Below are positions 53,089 to 63,205 of a DNA stretch of 64,000 nt, piece after piece. Each line of letters opens with the position of its first letter. The stretch's first letter is position 1. The notes below the pieces were generated by a model. It made no database searches and was not told the DNA's origin. It saw only the letters and a program-made list of their open reading frames with translations. The stretch covers positions 4,386,501 through 4,450,500 of the forward strand of contig NZ_CP053439.1 in NCBI RefSeq assembly GCF_000769405.2, read 5' to 3'. Source of the DNA: Rhizobium brockwellii (GTDB lineage Bacteria > Pseudomonadota > Alphaproteobacteria > Rhizobiales > Rhizobiaceae). The position numbers and the translations under genes are program-made.

Positions 53089-53210
53089 TCCTACCGCGCT
53101 CTAGAGAAATTCCAGCAAAAGTGCGGAGCGGTTTTGCGTCGGGAATTGCGTGAAAACAAAGAGATAGAGCATTTCCGTGATTCGGAGAAAAACGGAAACG
53201 CTCTAGCGCC
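53089..53210. repeat. Second rhizobial intergenic repeat, between holA and parB
   Basis: Starts at GCGCGTCC with CGCGCTCTAGAG, passes through AATTCCAGCAAAAGTGCGGA and GGGAATTGCG, then AAAACAAAGAGATAGAGC, and closes with a palindrome (AGAGC-TTTCCGT / ACGGAAA-GCTCT) near 53165-53205. This motif order is familiar from intergenic repeats of Rhizobium and Sinorhizobium. The parB stop codon (53203-53205) is inside the last palindrome arm. Confidence 0.7.
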
Positions 53211-54084
53211 TCTCAAGCAAACGGCAGATTTCCTCGAGCTGCTCTAATGACTTATAGGAAATTTTGATCTGGCCGCCGCTTGCCTTGTGATTGATCGCAA
53301 CATCAAGGCCGAGTGCATCGGAAAGTGTCCGTTCCAGCGCCAGCGTGTCAGAATCTTTCTGATCTCGCCGCAACGTCGTTTGCGGCGGCTCCGATTGGGC
53401 CTTGATATTGTTTTGCGCCAGCTTTTCCGCATCACGCACCGACATGCCCTTGGCAACGATCGTGCGGGCAAGACTTGCCGGATCAGATGTCGAAACCAGT
53501 GCGCGTGCGTGCCCAGCTGATAGGCTGCCGGCGGCAAGCAGATCGCGAACCGGATCAGGCAATTTCAACAGACGCAACGAATTGGCAACATGGCTGCGGC
53601 TTTTGCCGATGATTTCGCCGAGGTCGTTCTGGGTGTAGCCGTATTCCGCGATAAGCTGCTCGTACCCCAAGGCCTCTTCGAGGGCATTGAGATCCGCGCG
53701 CTGCACGTTTTCGACAATAGCGATTTCCAGCGCCGTCTTATCATCCACATCACGGATAATGACGGCAATCTCGATCAGCCCGGCAAGCTGAGCTGCGCGC
53801 CAACGTCGTTCGCCGGCGATGATCTCATATCGATCCCGCGACATCGTCCGCACAACAATCGGCTGAACGATACCATGTTGACGAATGGAGCTTGCGAGAT
53901 CGTGCAGCTCCGAGTCATCGAAGAACCGACGAGGATTGCGAGGATTGCGGCTGACGAACTCTATCGGGATCATTCTGTCGGCGCTGATAGTCCGCTCAGC
54001 TTCCACCGGGACAGGCTGATCCATTTCACCAATCAGCGCCGCGAGACCACGACCCAATCGCCTCTTTGATACATCGTCATTCAT
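53203..54084 (-). CDS. parB: Chromosome partitioning protein ParB
   Basis: 293 residues. SKRRLGRGLAALIGE, then PRNPRRFFDDSELHDLASSI, and the CTP-binding box GERRWRAAQ at 91-99 mark the ParB N-domain. LGEIIGKSRSHVANSLRLLKL is the parS-recognising helix-turn-helix, and the C-terminus is the dimer domain. It binds parS and slides as a CTP-dependent clamp to load SMC and help segregate the origin. Downstream partner of parA after 30 bp. Confidence 0.97.
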   Translation of the reverse strand: MNDDVSKRRLGRGLAALIGEMDQPVPVEAERTISADRMIPIEFVSRNPRNPRRFFDDSELHDLASSIRQHGIVQPIVVRTMSRDRYEIIAGERRWRAAQLAGLIEIAVIIRDVDDKTALEIAIVENVQRADLNALEEALGYEQLIAEYGYTQNDLGEIIGKSRSHVANSLRLLKLPDPVRDLLAAGSLSAGHARALVSTSDPASLARTIVAKGMSVRDAEKLAQNNIKAQSEPPQTTLRRDQKDSDTLALERTLSDALGLDVAINHKASGGQIKISYKSLEQLEEICRLLERR

Positions 54085-54114
54085 GATCTACACTCACCTA
54101 CTCCTAAAATGATA

Positions 54115-54909
54115 TCACGCGGCCAGTCTTTGGCGTTCTCGCTGGATCACCTCGGAGGCCAGCTGCAGATAGGCCTGACTGCCCGCGCACTTCAAGTCAT
54201 AAAGAATAGCCGGCTTACCGTAGGACGGAGCCTCGGAAACCCGGACGTTGCGCGGAATTAACGTGTGGTAAACCTTGTCCCCGAGATGAGTACGCACGTC
54301 ATTAACAACCTGCTGGGCAAGATTGTTGCGCGCATCGAACATCGTCAAGACGATACCTTGAATATCCAGACGCGGGTTAACTGTCCGCCGAACCTGGCTG
54401 ACGGTCTCAAGCAACTGGCTCAATCCCTCCAGCGCAAAGAATTCACATTGCAGCGGCACCAGGACCGAATGCGCTGCCGCCATGGCATTCATCGTCAGCA
54501 GATTGAACGACGGCGGGCAATCCAGAAGAATATAAGAAAACGCCATCGCCTCGGGCGAAGATAGCGCTTTCCGCAATTTGAACACCCGATCGCTCTGCTG
54601 CGAGATTTCCATCTCGATGCCAAGAAGATCCATCGTTGATGGGACAATAAACAGATTAGGAACTGCTGTTTCGAGAGTCACTTCGGGGATCCCACGATCA
54701 CCAACCATCAGATCGTAGGAGGACAGCTTGCGATCACGACGATCGATACCGAGGCCTGTGCTGGCATTGCCCTGTGGGTCGAGATCGACGATCAAGACGC
54801 GCTCGCCGATAGCAGCAAGCGCCGTTGCCAGATTAATTGCTGTGGTCGTCTTGCCAACGCCACCCTTCTGATTTGCGATGGTGATAATCCGATGTCGTTC
54901 GCCAGCCAT
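54115..54909 (-). CDS. parA: Chromosome partitioning ATPase ParA (Soj)
   Basis: 264 residues. The deviant Walker A KGGVGKTTTAINLATALA (from residue 15), DLDPQGNASTGLG and YILLDCPPSFNLLTMNA are intact. The ATPase moves ParB-parS complexes during segregation. Length is that of chromosomal ParA, with no N-terminal DNA-binding extension as in plasmid types. Located 19 bp after rsmG; rsmG-parA-parB probably form one transcript. Confidence 0.97.
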   Translation of the reverse strand: MAGERHRIITIANQKGGVGKTTTAINLATALAAIGERVLIVDLDPQGNASTGLGIDRRDRKLSSYDLMVGDRGIPEVTLETAVPNLFIVPSTMDLLGIEMEISQQSDRVFKLRKALSSPEAMAFSYILLDCPPSFNLLTMNAMAAAHSVLVPLQCEFFALEGLSQLLETVSQVRRTVNPRLDIQGIVLTMFDARNNLAQQVVNDVRTHLGDKVYHTLIPRNVRVSEAPSYGKPAILYDLKCAGSQAYLQLASEVIQRERQRLAA

Positions 54910-54928: not shown

Positions 54929-55546
54929 TTAAACCAAGCGCCGGAGATTTGATACTTCCAAAATAACAGATTCCTGCTCGACGGCGCTCTTATGTTCTAA
55001 CAGATCGAATTCCCACCGACCACGTGCTTTGTTGACTTCCCTCAAGTAATCCCGGCCTTTGTGAAAAAAGCCGCGACAATTTTCCTTGCCAAGCATCCAA
55101 GGGGCTGAATACTCGATGAGCCCGTCAAGATCAGCAAGAGCGCGCGCTGAAATCGCACCACATTCGCCAATCTCCGCATAAGAATCTTCGATTCGAAGGA
55201 TATGAACGCTGCCGCGCGCACTTGTCTCGCGCAACGCCGTCCGTAGAAACGCCGCCTTTTTATGGTTGCTTTCGACCAGATGGACCCATCCACCTCTCAT
55301 CTCAGCCAGAAAAATCGCCGTGATAACGCCGGGAAAACCGCCTCCACTGCCGAGGTCAACCCAGCTTGCTGGTTGAGGATGGATTTGAAACACCTGGCTG
55401 CTATCGGCGATGTGCCGATGCCATAGATCATCGAGCGTCGACGGCGCCACTAGATTAATCGCTTTTGCCCACTTCTGAAACAACGCTGCAAAGTGCTGCA
55501 GCCGTTCCTGTGTTTCACGTGAAACACGCAAACCGTTCAATTCCAT
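54929..55546 (-). CDS. rsmG: 16S rRNA (guanine-N7) methyltransferase RsmG (GidB)
   Basis: 205 residues. SAM-binding [19 protein letters not shown] and [20 protein letters not shown] are conserved. It methylates G527 (E. coli number) of 16S rRNA. The N-terminus [20 protein letters not shown] contains the codons that form a perfect parS site. Sits between mnmG (26 bp) and parA (19 bp). Confidence 0.96.
55511..55526. promoter_or_regulatory. parS, perfect ParB-binding site inside rsmG
   Basis: TGTTTCACGTGAAACA, 16 of 16 bases of the consensus. It lies within the first codons of rsmG, where the minus strand reads as codons for R-V-S-R-E-T. Confidence 0.95.
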
Positions 55547-60411: not shown

Positions 60412-60954
60412 TCAGAACGGCTTCACCACGACGAGGATGACGATCAGGATCATCAGCACTGTCGGGGCCTCGTTCATGAACCGCCAATAACGCGCCGAGC
60501 GGCGATTTTCATCCCGCTCGAACGCTCCGACGGCGCGGCTGAAGAACATATGAACAGCGGTCAGCAATACAACGAGACCGATCTTGGCATGCAGCCAGCC
60601 GCCCTGGAATCCATAAACCGACCAGGCGAGATAGAGGCCGAAAATCCACGTCAACATCATCGCCGGCGTCATGATGATTCGAAGCAGCCGGCGCTCCATC
60701 ACCTTGAAGGTTTCCGATTGCACCGAACCCGGCTCCGCATCAGTGTGATAGATGAACAGCCGCGGCATATAAAACAGCCCGGCCATCCACGAAATGACCG
60801 CGATGATGTGCAGCGCCTTGATCCAGAGGTAGAGATTGTCGGGGTTCCAAGCAAAAAGCCCGATCGCCATCAGCGCAAAGAAGGCCAGCGCAAAATGAGC
60901 CCGGCGCCGGGCGTAAGCGCCAGATCTGCGATCGGTCTGTTTTTCCATCGTCAC
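60412..60954 (-). CDS. hemJ: Protoporphyrinogen oxidase HemJ
   Basis: 180 residues from GTG 60954, overlapping the hemE stop as GTGA (or from ATG two codons later). Hydrophobic throughout, with about four membrane segments. [20 protein letters not shown], with the conserved histidine, plus PRLFIYH and [19 protein letters not shown] match HemJ/UPF0093. It oxidises protoporphyrinogen IX in haem synthesis in bacteria lacking HemG/HemY. Directly downstream of hemE. Confidence 0.94.
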
Positions 60955-61982
60955 GCCCCGCCTCGCACACGATCCACCAGCAGACGCACATGCTCGGGGT
61001 TGGCCTGCGGTGTAATGCCGTGACCGAGATTGAAGATCAGCGGACCATTGCCGAGATGCTGCAGAATATCGTCGATGCCGTCTTCCAGCGCCCGGCCGCC
61101 GGCAACGACGCGCATCGGATCGAGGTTGCCCTGAACAGGTCCATCCTTTTGAAGTTCCGCGGCAAAGGCCAGCGGGACAGACCAGTCGAGGCCGATTGCA
61201 TCTGCGCCCGTCTTCTGGCGATAGGTTTTCAGCTGATAGCCGGCGCCCTTCGCAAAAGCGATGATACGCGCATGCGGCCGTTGTGATTTGACCGAAGCGA
61301 TCATCCGCGCAACCGGCCTGATCGCAAACGCCTCGAACTCCTTCTCGCCGAGAACACCTGCCCAGGAATCGAAGATCTGCACGGCATCGGCGCCGGCATC
61401 GATCTGGGCGACGAGATAGTCGGCTGAAACGTCAGCAAGCAGCATCAGCAGATGCTCGAAAGCGCGGGGGTGCCTGTAGGCGAAGAGACGGGCAGGCGCC
61501 TGATCCGGCGTGCCGTGACCGGCGATCATGTAGGTCGCAACCGTCCATGGCGCGCCGCAGAAGCCGAGCAGCGTCGTCTCGACCGGCAACTGCTCGCGCA
61601 GCCGCCGCACCGTTTCCAGAACCGGCCTGAGATAATCGACAACCTCTTCGCCATTCAATCTGCCGATACCGGCTTCATCGATCGGATCCATCTGCGGACC
61701 GTGGCCCTCGGTGAACCGGACATTCCGCTTCATTGCATCGGGAATGACCAGGATATCGGAAAATAGAATGGCCGCATCGAAGCCATAGCGGCGGATCGGC
61801 TGCAATGTCACTTCGACGGCATGGTCAGGCGTATAGCAGAGATCGAGAAAACTCCCTGCCTTTGCCCGCGTCTCCCGATATTCCGGGAGATAACGTCCTG
61901 CCTGTCTCATCAACCAGAGGGGAGGAGGGGACAGGCTTTCGCCACCCAAAACCCTCATGATCTTTCGGCGCGTATCGCTCAA
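60951..61982 (-). CDS. hemE: Uroporphyrinogen decarboxylase
   Basis: 343 residues from TTG 61982, with AGGGA 9 bases upstream; the alternative ATG at residue 9 would begin at [26 protein letters not shown] is the uroporphyrinogen decarboxylase signature, followed by [18 protein letters not shown] and [16 protein letters not shown]. It decarboxylates uroporphyrinogen III to coproporphyrinogen III. It borders the probable oriC, as in other Rhizobiales and Caulobacter. Confidence 0.97.
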
Positions 61983-62383
61983 GCGCTTTTTCCCTATAAA
62001 ATAACAAAGATATTTTAAAAGGTTTCTATTTCTTAGAGTCGGTGACTATCAAGGATTAAAATCCATCCACCGCCGATGCCATTTGTCGCGCGGTTGCAAA
62101 ACAAAATCGGGAAGATTTGTCGATCTCGTCCAAATTTCGGGGAGAAGCCGAATCCGGAAATGATTTCAAATCCTTCCAGAGCGGCGATTTTTCTCGTAGC
62201 TGTGGACGGGCTGTGGACGAGCTTTCAAGAAGCCCAGCCCTTCCCCACCGTCCACAGGGCCAACCGAAACCGTTCGGCAAAATCCGAAATGTGGATAAAG
62301 AGGCATGTTTTCCCTTGCCGGAGACTGCCTCGCCGCCGTAGCTCTGTTTCATCCAGTGTTTTCAACAGGCAGCGGAAAATAGC
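61983..62383. other. oriC: Probable chromosomal replication origin (oriC) between hemE and ppsR
   Basis: 401 bp with no gene. Left part (about 61990-62060) is very AT-rich (CCCTATAAAATAACAAAG, TATTTTAAAAGG), a candidate unwinding element. On the right are a perfect DnaA box TGTGGATAA (62290-62298) and three near boxes sharing the TCCACA core: TGTGGACGG (62201-62209), TGTGGACGA (62212-62220) and CCGTCCACA (62248-62256). GANTC sites, the CcrM methylation target, occur at 62036 (GAGTC) and 62150 (GAATC). The hemE-oriC-ppsR arrangement is that of known alphaproteobacterial origins, and flanking genes are transcribed outwards. Confidence 0.85.
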
Positions 62384-63205
62384 GTGGAGAACAGAACGAA
62401 CTTCTTTCATCTGCATCTGATTTCTGACTCAACGGGAGAGACTCTGATCTCCGCCGGGCGCGCCGCGTCGGCGCAGTTCAGATCGGCGCAGCCGATCGAA
62501 CATGTCTATCCGCTGATCCGCAATCGCAAGCAGCTGCTGCCGGTTCTGCAGGCGATCGATGACGCCCCCGGCATCGTGCTTTACACCATTGTCGACCGCG
62601 AGCTTGCAAGCCTCATCGATGAGCGCTGCATCGAGATGGGTGTCGCTTCGGTGAATGTGCTGGAGCCGGTGATGAATGCCTTCCAGATCTATCTCGGCGC
62701 TCCGTCGCGCCGTCGGGTCGGAGCTCAGCATGTGATGAATGCCGGCTACTTCGCGCGCATCGAAGCGCTGAATTTCACCATGGATCACGATGACGGCCAA
62801 ATGCCTGATGATTACAACGACGCCGATGTCGTGATCATCGGCATCAGCCGTACATCGAAAACACCGACCAGCATCTACCTCGCCAACCGAGGCATCAAGA
62901 CGGCGAACATTCCGATCGTCTATGGCGTGCCATTGCCGGAGAGCCTCTTCGTCGCGAGCAAACCGCTGATTGTCTGCTTGATCGCCACCACCGATCGTAT
63001 TTCCCAGGTGCGGGAAAATCGTGTGCTCGGGGTGACGCAGGGCTTCGATCGCGAACACTACACCGATCGCGCCGCGATTTCCGAGGAACTGAAATATGCC
63101 CGCTCGCTTTGCGCTCGTCATAACTGGCCGCTGATCGACGTTACCCGCCGCTCAATCGAGGAAACAGCCGCGGCAATCGTTGCCCTGCGGCCGAAGCTGC
63201 GCTAA
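62384..63205 (+). CDS. ppsR: Pyruvate, phosphate dikinase regulatory protein (kinase/pyrophosphorylase)
   Basis: 273 residues from GTG 62384, with GCGGAA upstream. [20 protein letters not shown] is the DUF299 family start, and the P-loop [18 protein letters not shown] is at 153-170. It switches pyruvate-phosphate dikinase (or PEP synthase) by phosphorylating and dephosphorylating a threonine. The gene next to oriC in Caulobacter and relatives is this same family. Full length. Confidence 0.94.

Follow-up and report, generated by a model that had tools for sequence, protein, structure and literature searches.

A conserved candidate unwinding element beside hemE in a probable rhizobial chromosomal origin

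The window, i.e., the whole stretch of 64,000 nucleotides analysed here, corresponds to C1:4386501-4450500 of a 7.12-Mb genome in seven contigs, C1 being 4,835,120 bp long. A gap of 401 bp at 61983-62383 separates hemE on the minus strand from a ppsR-family gene on the plus strand, and its extent rests on the assumed start codon of hemE. An earlier note on this DNA had described it as gene-free with both neighbors pointing away, which we confirmed. The ppsR-family gene is presumably equivalent to COG1806/DUF299, and its product is 100% identical in R. leguminosarum, R. johnstonii, R. ruizarguesonis, and other records. The parAB genes and a perfect copy of TGTTTCACGTGAAACA, which we take to be a parS site from its motif, are found together 7 to 9 kb from the gap, with the perfect parS at 7 kb. 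Sites resembling parS (0 to 2 mismatches) were seen in the window at 55511, 57473, 57512, 63836, and 15264; the perfect one at 55511 falls inside rsmG, where the protein reads VSRET. The coordinates of the features are collected in Table 1.

For comparison, 80 loci were drawn via PpsR, and the window was aligned with 69 of them (L062 to L130; the 11 more distant ones were left out), giving 70 aligned loci. The length of the gap is tightly kept, being 398 to 405 bp (SD 1.3) in 65 of the 66 loci L062 to L127 in which both genes were placed, whereas the shorter rho-hemJ gap showed an SD of 3.8 in 64 loci.

Table 1. Features of the hemE-ppsR region (window coordinates; a dot marks features given without a strand)
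Feature	Position	Strand	Basis or remark
parB and parA, for chromosome partition, close to the origin	53203..54909	-	
Perfect parS TGTTTCACGTGAAACA	55511..55526	.	= C1:4442011
hemE, uroporphyrinogen decarboxylase, left boundary gene, TTG start	60951..61982	-	TIGR01464, 402 bits
Chromosomal oriC (almost certain), hemE-ppsR intergenic region	61983..62383	.	Gap, TCCACA cluster, octamer switch, skew
AT-rich tract by hemE, putative duplex-unwinding region	61990..62022	.	AT 0.73 over 61990-62049 and 62001-62060
DnaA-trio-like tract AAG AAA TAG AAA, four NAN triplets	62023..62034	-	Sequence; period-3 adenine across genera
21-bp signature TTCTRWTTCTWAGAGTCKGTK	62024..62044	+	211/394 family genomes, at most 1 mismatch
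GAGTC, a GANTC site of the CcrM type, 1 base from the tract	62036..62040	.	70/70 aligned loci
Degenerate DnaA-box-like TAATCCTTG, 4 mismatches, 15 nt from the tract	62050..62058	-	Overlaps IHF-like 62047-62059
Weak DnaA-box-like CCATCCACC	62063..62071	+	Fixed-spacing box signal, mean 4.92/9, 48 loci
Second GANTC, GAATC	62150..62154	.	GAATC in 36/70 aligned loci
DnaA box A, CCGTCCACA in the window	62201..62209	-	TTATCCACA or CTATCCACA in 33/70 aligned loci
DnaA box B, TCGTCCACA	62212..62220	-	
DnaA box C, CCGTCCACA	62248..62256	+	
DnaA box D, perfect TTATCCACA	62290..62298	-	TGTGGATAA 39/70, TGTGGAAAA 27/70, TGTGGACAA 4/70
Conserved TTTTCAACA, possible weak DnaA box	62359..62367	+	62/70 aligned loci
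ppsR-family kinase/phosphorylase, right boundary gene, GTG start	62384..63205	+	NF003742, 332 bits

Strand polarity was followed over the 1.215 Mb of C1 that we read, comprising evenly spaced samples, 4.14 to 4.835 Mb minus a masked stretch, and the terminus side. The best single polarity switch of GGGNAGGG within 4.14 to 4.835 Mb lies between C1:4448738 and 4450225, in or just beside the gap, with 16 of 28 copies on the plus strand to its left and 29 of 31 to its right. Five other splits were listed within 1.7 log units, four of them no more than 34 kb away and one 67 kb to the left. The right side of the gap is polarised for this motif (29 plus, 3 minus), and the 309 kb on the left (C1 4.14 to 4.449 Mb, including window positions 1 to 62000) are not (16 plus, 11 minus), perhaps through rearrangement or relaxed selection near the origin. 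A second motif, GGGCAGGG, which we take to be a polarised octamer of the FtsK-orienting kind, was on the plus strand in 26 of 26 copies in the 300 kb read of C1 0 to 1.98 Mb and on the minus strand in 17 of 17 in the 220 kb read of 1.98 to 4.14 Mb. It occurred five times on each strand in 4.14 to 4.449 Mb and only on the plus strand (11/11) in 4.449 to 4.835 Mb; two copies within the window run the other way. The terminus polarity switch fell between C1 1,980,218 and 1,994,329, nearly antipodal, and the two arms therefore stand at about 49:51.

The GC-skew change point was located at C1 4,452,000, 3.3 kb from the gap (permutation p 0.013), with a wide bootstrap interval of 4.26 to 4.70 Mb, and the raw cumulative minimum at C1 4,468,000; masked bases were handled in this run by setting five 1-kb bins to the mean. 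A skew switch far from 62 kb, which the earlier note had named as contrary evidence, was looked for and did not appear, though the interval is wide. Strand polarity does switch at the site, and the breadth of that interval, the unpolarised left flank, and the location of dnaA at C1:124, 386 kb from the gap, are what might favor an origin at dnaA or elsewhere, with the gap serving as a DnaA-regulated divergent promoter. We regard this as very improbable, because the octamer switch, the TCCACA cluster, and the hemE/COG1806 synteny coincide at the gap and what was read of the sequence flanking the dnaA start contains no second TCCACA cluster.

The gap holds one perfect DnaA box, TTATCCACA at 62290-62298 on the minus strand, which is the sole perfect match in 64 kb, and three boxes with TCCACA cores at 62201 (-), 62212 (-), and 62251 (+), as the earlier note had it. 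Four TCCACA in 100 bp make this the densest spot in the 1.215 Mb of C1 read, the runner-up having two; across the 64-kb window the hexamer is not enriched (22 found, 18.9 expected). The DnaA-box cluster expected of a Cori-type origin is evident from this TCCACA density but not when only full boxes with zero or one mismatch are counted. Of 86 such boxes in the sequence read, the gap has one and by this stricter measure does not stand out, and two other places carry two within 400 bp. Perfect boxes TTATCCACA are rare, with nine in the 7.12-Mb genome, all on C1; the backward pattern occurs 33 times.

The three TCCACA-core boxes carry G-T letters in the window, and the earlier note had suggested on these grounds a second, weaker DnaA-box class, CGTCCACA. 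The letters were read correctly, but they are not conserved among the 70 aligned loci. Box A reads TGTGGACGG in 1, TGTGGATAG in 17, TGTGGATAA in 16, TGTGGAAAA in 12, and TGTGGACAA in 10 of them, box B is TGTGGACGA in 7, and box C is CCGTCCACA in 1 and TCGTCCACA in 13. We dropped the proposed class because the relatives have different letters at the same places. On the minus strand of 62186-62220, the tandem boxes B and A are separated by 2 bp, and GC and four NAN triplets come next, a BUS-like order; the letters of the triplets are unconserved, and 6 of 100 shuffles equalled the arrangement.

The boundary genes, DnaA boxes, and AT-rich region are shared with Caulobacter crescentus Cori, which the cited portion of PMC1914354 places between hemE and COG1806, and this supports the earlier statement that the hemE junction is a known place of alphaproteobacterial origins. 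The gap likewise has hemE and COG1806 (PpsR/DUF299) as its divergent boundary, and the AT-rich block described in the earlier note is real: the AT-richest 60-mer of the window begins at 62001 (AT 0.73; steps of five bases), and only 0.43% of the 60-mers in the sequence read are as AT-rich as 61990-62049 (AT 0.73) or richer. A marker-frequency maximum near hemE is described for Hyphomonas in the part of PMC6650430 drawn on here. Unlike Cori, the gap contains no TTAAN7TTAA CtrA site, nor does any of the 69 related gaps. The Caulobacter origin has five CtrA sites, which are absent from some predicted origins of the type (PMC1914354, as far as cited), and CtrA of B. abortus binds several promoters and not the origin (PMC2877005, as excerpted). 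Set against the IHF sites of Cori, the window's gap has one IHF-like match with one mismatch, at 62047-62059. The chromosomal origin of Sinorhizobium meliloti was reportedly placed beside hemE, with DnaA boxes, by Sibley, MacLellan and Finan in 2006. An S. meliloti record matches the 55-bp core at 92.7% identity, but of the 401-bp gap only query bases 32 to 86 were matched at E ≤ 1e-5.

What was computed for the gap is its position at the replichore switch, its DnaA-box cluster, its AT-rich tract, and its conservation. Because the replichore switch, the TCCACA cluster, and the near-antipodal terminus switch agree, we conclude that it is almost certainly the chromosomal oriC, of the hemE/COG1806 (Cori) type. 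The earlier proposal of an origin here is upheld by the octamer switch, the TCCACA density, and the skew change point. As a kind, this origin is ordinary and already known.

The best-kept part of the gap is an element at 62023-62058 beside hemE, rather than the DnaA boxes. The best-kept 43-bp window of the 70-locus alignment begins at 62019-62020 and has a mean major-letter share of 0.97, compared with a median of 0.69. The earlier note had recorded the GANTC site and AT-richness of this part and overlooked its conservation. Within it, CAAGGATTA at 62050 is invariant (70/70), and the box signal at fixed spacing averages 4.69/9 at 62050-62058 in 48 loci. The blocks GGCATGTTTTCCCTTGCC and TTTTCAACAGGCAGCGGAAAATAGC, at 62302-62321 and 62357-62383, are also well kept.

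With up to one mismatch allowed, the signature TTCTRWTTCTWAGAGTCKGTK was found in 211 of 394 genomes of the window's family, which we took as Rhizobiaceae from the named loci; no genome had two copies among the matches listed, and the reversed control gave one match among those listed. Order-wide, allowing two mismatches, it was present in 21 of 397 genomes, 19 of them among the draw's 21 family members, and the reversed control in 11 of 397. The two order matches outside the family (L226 and L227) are at chance level, with no hemE in the fetched piece. We fetched 40 signature matches, hand-picked for genus breadth, of which 38 are in the family and represent 37 genera. In all 38, the signature stands 32 to 96 bp from the hemE start; in Rhizobium sp. 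NLR16a, Sinorhizobium sp. C101, and Shinella sp. PSBB067, the distance is 42 to 44 bp, with ppsR about 400 bp from hemE. Another set of 22 loci included four without hemE within the flank.

A further set consisted of 30 genera in which the signature is missing even with one mismatch allowed, with loci picked by hemE. Their best matches within 160 bp of hemE had 2, 3, 4, 5, 6, and 7 mismatches in 13, 8, 5, 1, 2, and 1 loci, respectively, and an equal-length control stretch had 6 to 11. By eye, the element was recognised in 29 of the 30. The sole exception, L266, has both hemE and a RAMA-domain gene and shows no recognisable element upstream of hemE. Some of the more distantly related loci within the order show looser letters of the GA.TCTGT type upstream of hemE, and by eye they were not discerned in class-level loci.

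Read from the GANTC site outward on the minus strand, the element shows a strict adenine period: adenine occupies tract positions 3, 6, and 9 in 29 of 29 loci and position 12 in 28. All 29 have adenine at position 5 too, and positions 1, 2, 4, 7, 8, 10, and 11 vary. A count of DnaA-trios among the 38 signature loci was discarded, since the pattern used to pick them fixes the letters concerned. The tract was instead tested in the hemE-selected loci anchored solely on the adjoining GASTCKGTB with at most one mismatch, which gave 27 of 30 loci; L254 and L261 (two mismatches) and L266 (three) were dropped for poor anchors before the count. At least four consecutive NAN triplets in one phase were present in 26 of the 27 anchored genera, and at least three in all 27. 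In 1,000 composition shuffles, any phase allowed, at least four triplets occurred in 6.6 loci on average and in no more than 16. Counting distinct tracts, at least four were found in 25 of 26, compared with a mean of 2.1 and a maximum of 7 in fixed-phase shuffles. Since the anchored loci are related, the shuffles overstate the significance, and these figures are to be read as support and not as a probability.

In the published scheme, as given in the part of PMC8287927 used here, a NAN triplet counts as a DnaA-trio if a DnaA box is no more than 16 nt away, and a sole box may have at most two mismatches. The element resembles a BUS in its NAN triplets with central adenine, of which the window has more than the three consecutive ones called for (AAG AAA TAG AAA), and in its 15-nt spacer, inside the published maximum of 16 (PMC8287927, same part). 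It is unlike a BUS in that the tract-side box is degenerate in the window and the spacer holds a CcrM site. Because TAATCCTTG, 15 nt away, has four mismatches and fails the box rule, we do not class the element as a BUS, although it may still work like one. In the window, that rule is satisfied by the tandem boxes A/B and their four triplets alone. Chelativorans (L132 and L133) does satisfy the published rule at the place of the element, with TAATCCACA, a 15-nt spacer, and five triplets. A scan of 20 selected gaps by the single-box form of the rule gave matches without one consistent place; in L132 and L133 the match coincided with the element, and in L140 it had a 3-nt spacer.

The proximity of the element to hemE raises the possibility that it is mainly the hemE promoter and leader, regulated by CcrM/GcrA through the GANTC site. 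Its distance of 32 to 96 bp upstream of hemE in 38 family loci is promoter-like, and in Caulobacter a hemE promoter is located in the origin. A promoter and terminator scan of 61900-62450, covering promoters of the sigma-70 type only, found neither a promoter nor a terminator, and a strict three-base adenine period with free letters between, as well as the TAATAATAA-type tracts of several genera, are not promoter-like; we therefore consider a mainly promoter role unlikely. An Rfam search of the window gave no match.

The box-like end of the element could be read differently as well, the invariant TATCAAGGATTAA being an IHF site that bends the origin and not a DnaA box. With WATCAANNNNTTR as the IHF consensus, 62047-62059 has one mismatch, and neither strand of the gap has another such match; the 1.215 Mb contain 140 such matches on the plus strand, so about 0.05 would be expected per strand in 401 bp. 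IHF sites also belong to Cori (PMC1914354, in its cited portion). In many genera, on the other hand, the letters there are CGGGGATTA-, CGGGAATTG-, or TGTGGATTA-like, GGATT or a similar motif being kept and the IHF letters lost, which makes the IHF reading the less probable one, if a serious one.

The reading that we prefer, a Cori-type oriC with unwinding at the hemE-proximal element, has in our estimate a probability of about 0.8 as a whole, its methylation step being weaker. DnaA would load on boxes A to D and on the weak boxes at 62050-62071, and the duplex would open first at the hemE-proximal element. A DnaA oligomer would grip the minus strand via the adenine-every-third-base tract at 62023-62034, and unwinding would then proceed into the AT-rich tract, toward hemE. 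The CcrM site between box and tract might, more tentatively, render this opening methylation-sensitive. The element is probably a well-defined conserved unwinding module of oriC, and a trio-type mechanism there is slightly favored by its tract and spacing.

Adenine-methylation sites lie inside Dam/SeqA-controlled gammaproteobacterial origins, as they do in the window's gap, where both GANTC sites of the earlier note were recovered, GAGTC at 62036 and GAATC at 62150. Unlike in those origins, the sites here are of the CcrM/GANTC type, for which a gating role is suggested by sequence, and we know of no sequestration protein for a CcrM/GANTC-type origin. Methylase and sites are both present, the window genome having one RAMA-domain gene, which we took as CcrM. 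That the GANTC at the element gates initiation at the chromosomal origin through CcrM methylation would fit its presence as GAGTC in 70 of 70 aligned loci and its retention in 26 of 29 further genera. Ten of these have GAGTC and 16 GACTC, a preference for C over G that is skewed because the genera were chosen for lack of the GAGTC-bearing signature. It would also fit the density of GANTC on the AT-rich side, where in the 38 pattern-chosen loci 54 further copies lie beyond the element's site in 1,710 bp (none in 8 of the 38), the opposite side having 63 in 11,400 bp. Ensifer genomes have 0.90 to 1.83 GANTC per kb (PMC8725594, in part).

Two observations weigh against such a gate. The site is absent from the element in 3 of the 29 genera (L254, L261, and L271), and all three keep a RAMA-domain gene, as does L266, and the idea that the GANTC-less genera are CcrM losers found no support; overall, 39 of the 41 genomes searched have the gene, and the remaining two are 72% and 77% complete. 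In A. tumefaciens, CcrM depletion or overexpression affects ori2 without clear effect on ori1, where overexpression gave 47% single foci versus 45%, not significant, according to the cited part of PMC11514494. A methylation gate at the chromosomal origin is doubtful on this balance. The broadest version of the idea, in which Rhizobiaceae chromosomal origins open via a DnaA-trio module with a near-invariant CcrM site in its spacer and post-replicative GANTC methylation tunes strand opening of the main chromosome directly, strikes us as improbable. If true, it would provide an alphaproteobacterial counterpart of Dam control inside an unwinding element and make the 21-bp signature a family-wide origin marker.

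Judged by titles and abstract openings, none of the literature matches listed dealt with hemE-type rhizobial origins in connection with DnaA-trios or a CcrM site. For DnaA-trio, alphaproteobacteria, and oriC combined, the matches listed contained one paper, on Epsilonproteobacteria. No alphaproteobacterium is among the BUS homologues tested as given in the cited part of PMC8287927, and its survey of 2070 species probably holds alphaproteobacterial predictions. The element addresses two questions, namely how alphaproteobacterial origins open and whether the main origin is a direct target of CcrM. The conserved signature may mark the place of first helix opening, where a methylation mark could matter, and the fixed place, phase, and adjoining GANTC of the element make both questions testable with short oligonucleotides. 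The signature is also a simple origin finder for the many draft genomes of the family.

Some records drew attention by their annotation or numbering. The 489-kb "plasmid p3" of Rhizobium sp. NLR16a (NZ_CP072868.1, L276) holds a chromosomal origin region with parAB, rho, hemE, ppsR, dnaQ, and gyrB, and it is either a wrongly labelled piece of the chromosome or part of a split chromosome. In R. johnstonii 3841 (NC_008380.1, L068), base 1 falls within hemE, 72 bp from its edge, and in another genome the first contig (G778:C1) starts 41 bases ahead of the 21-bp signature, as if the origin had been chosen as base 1 in both.
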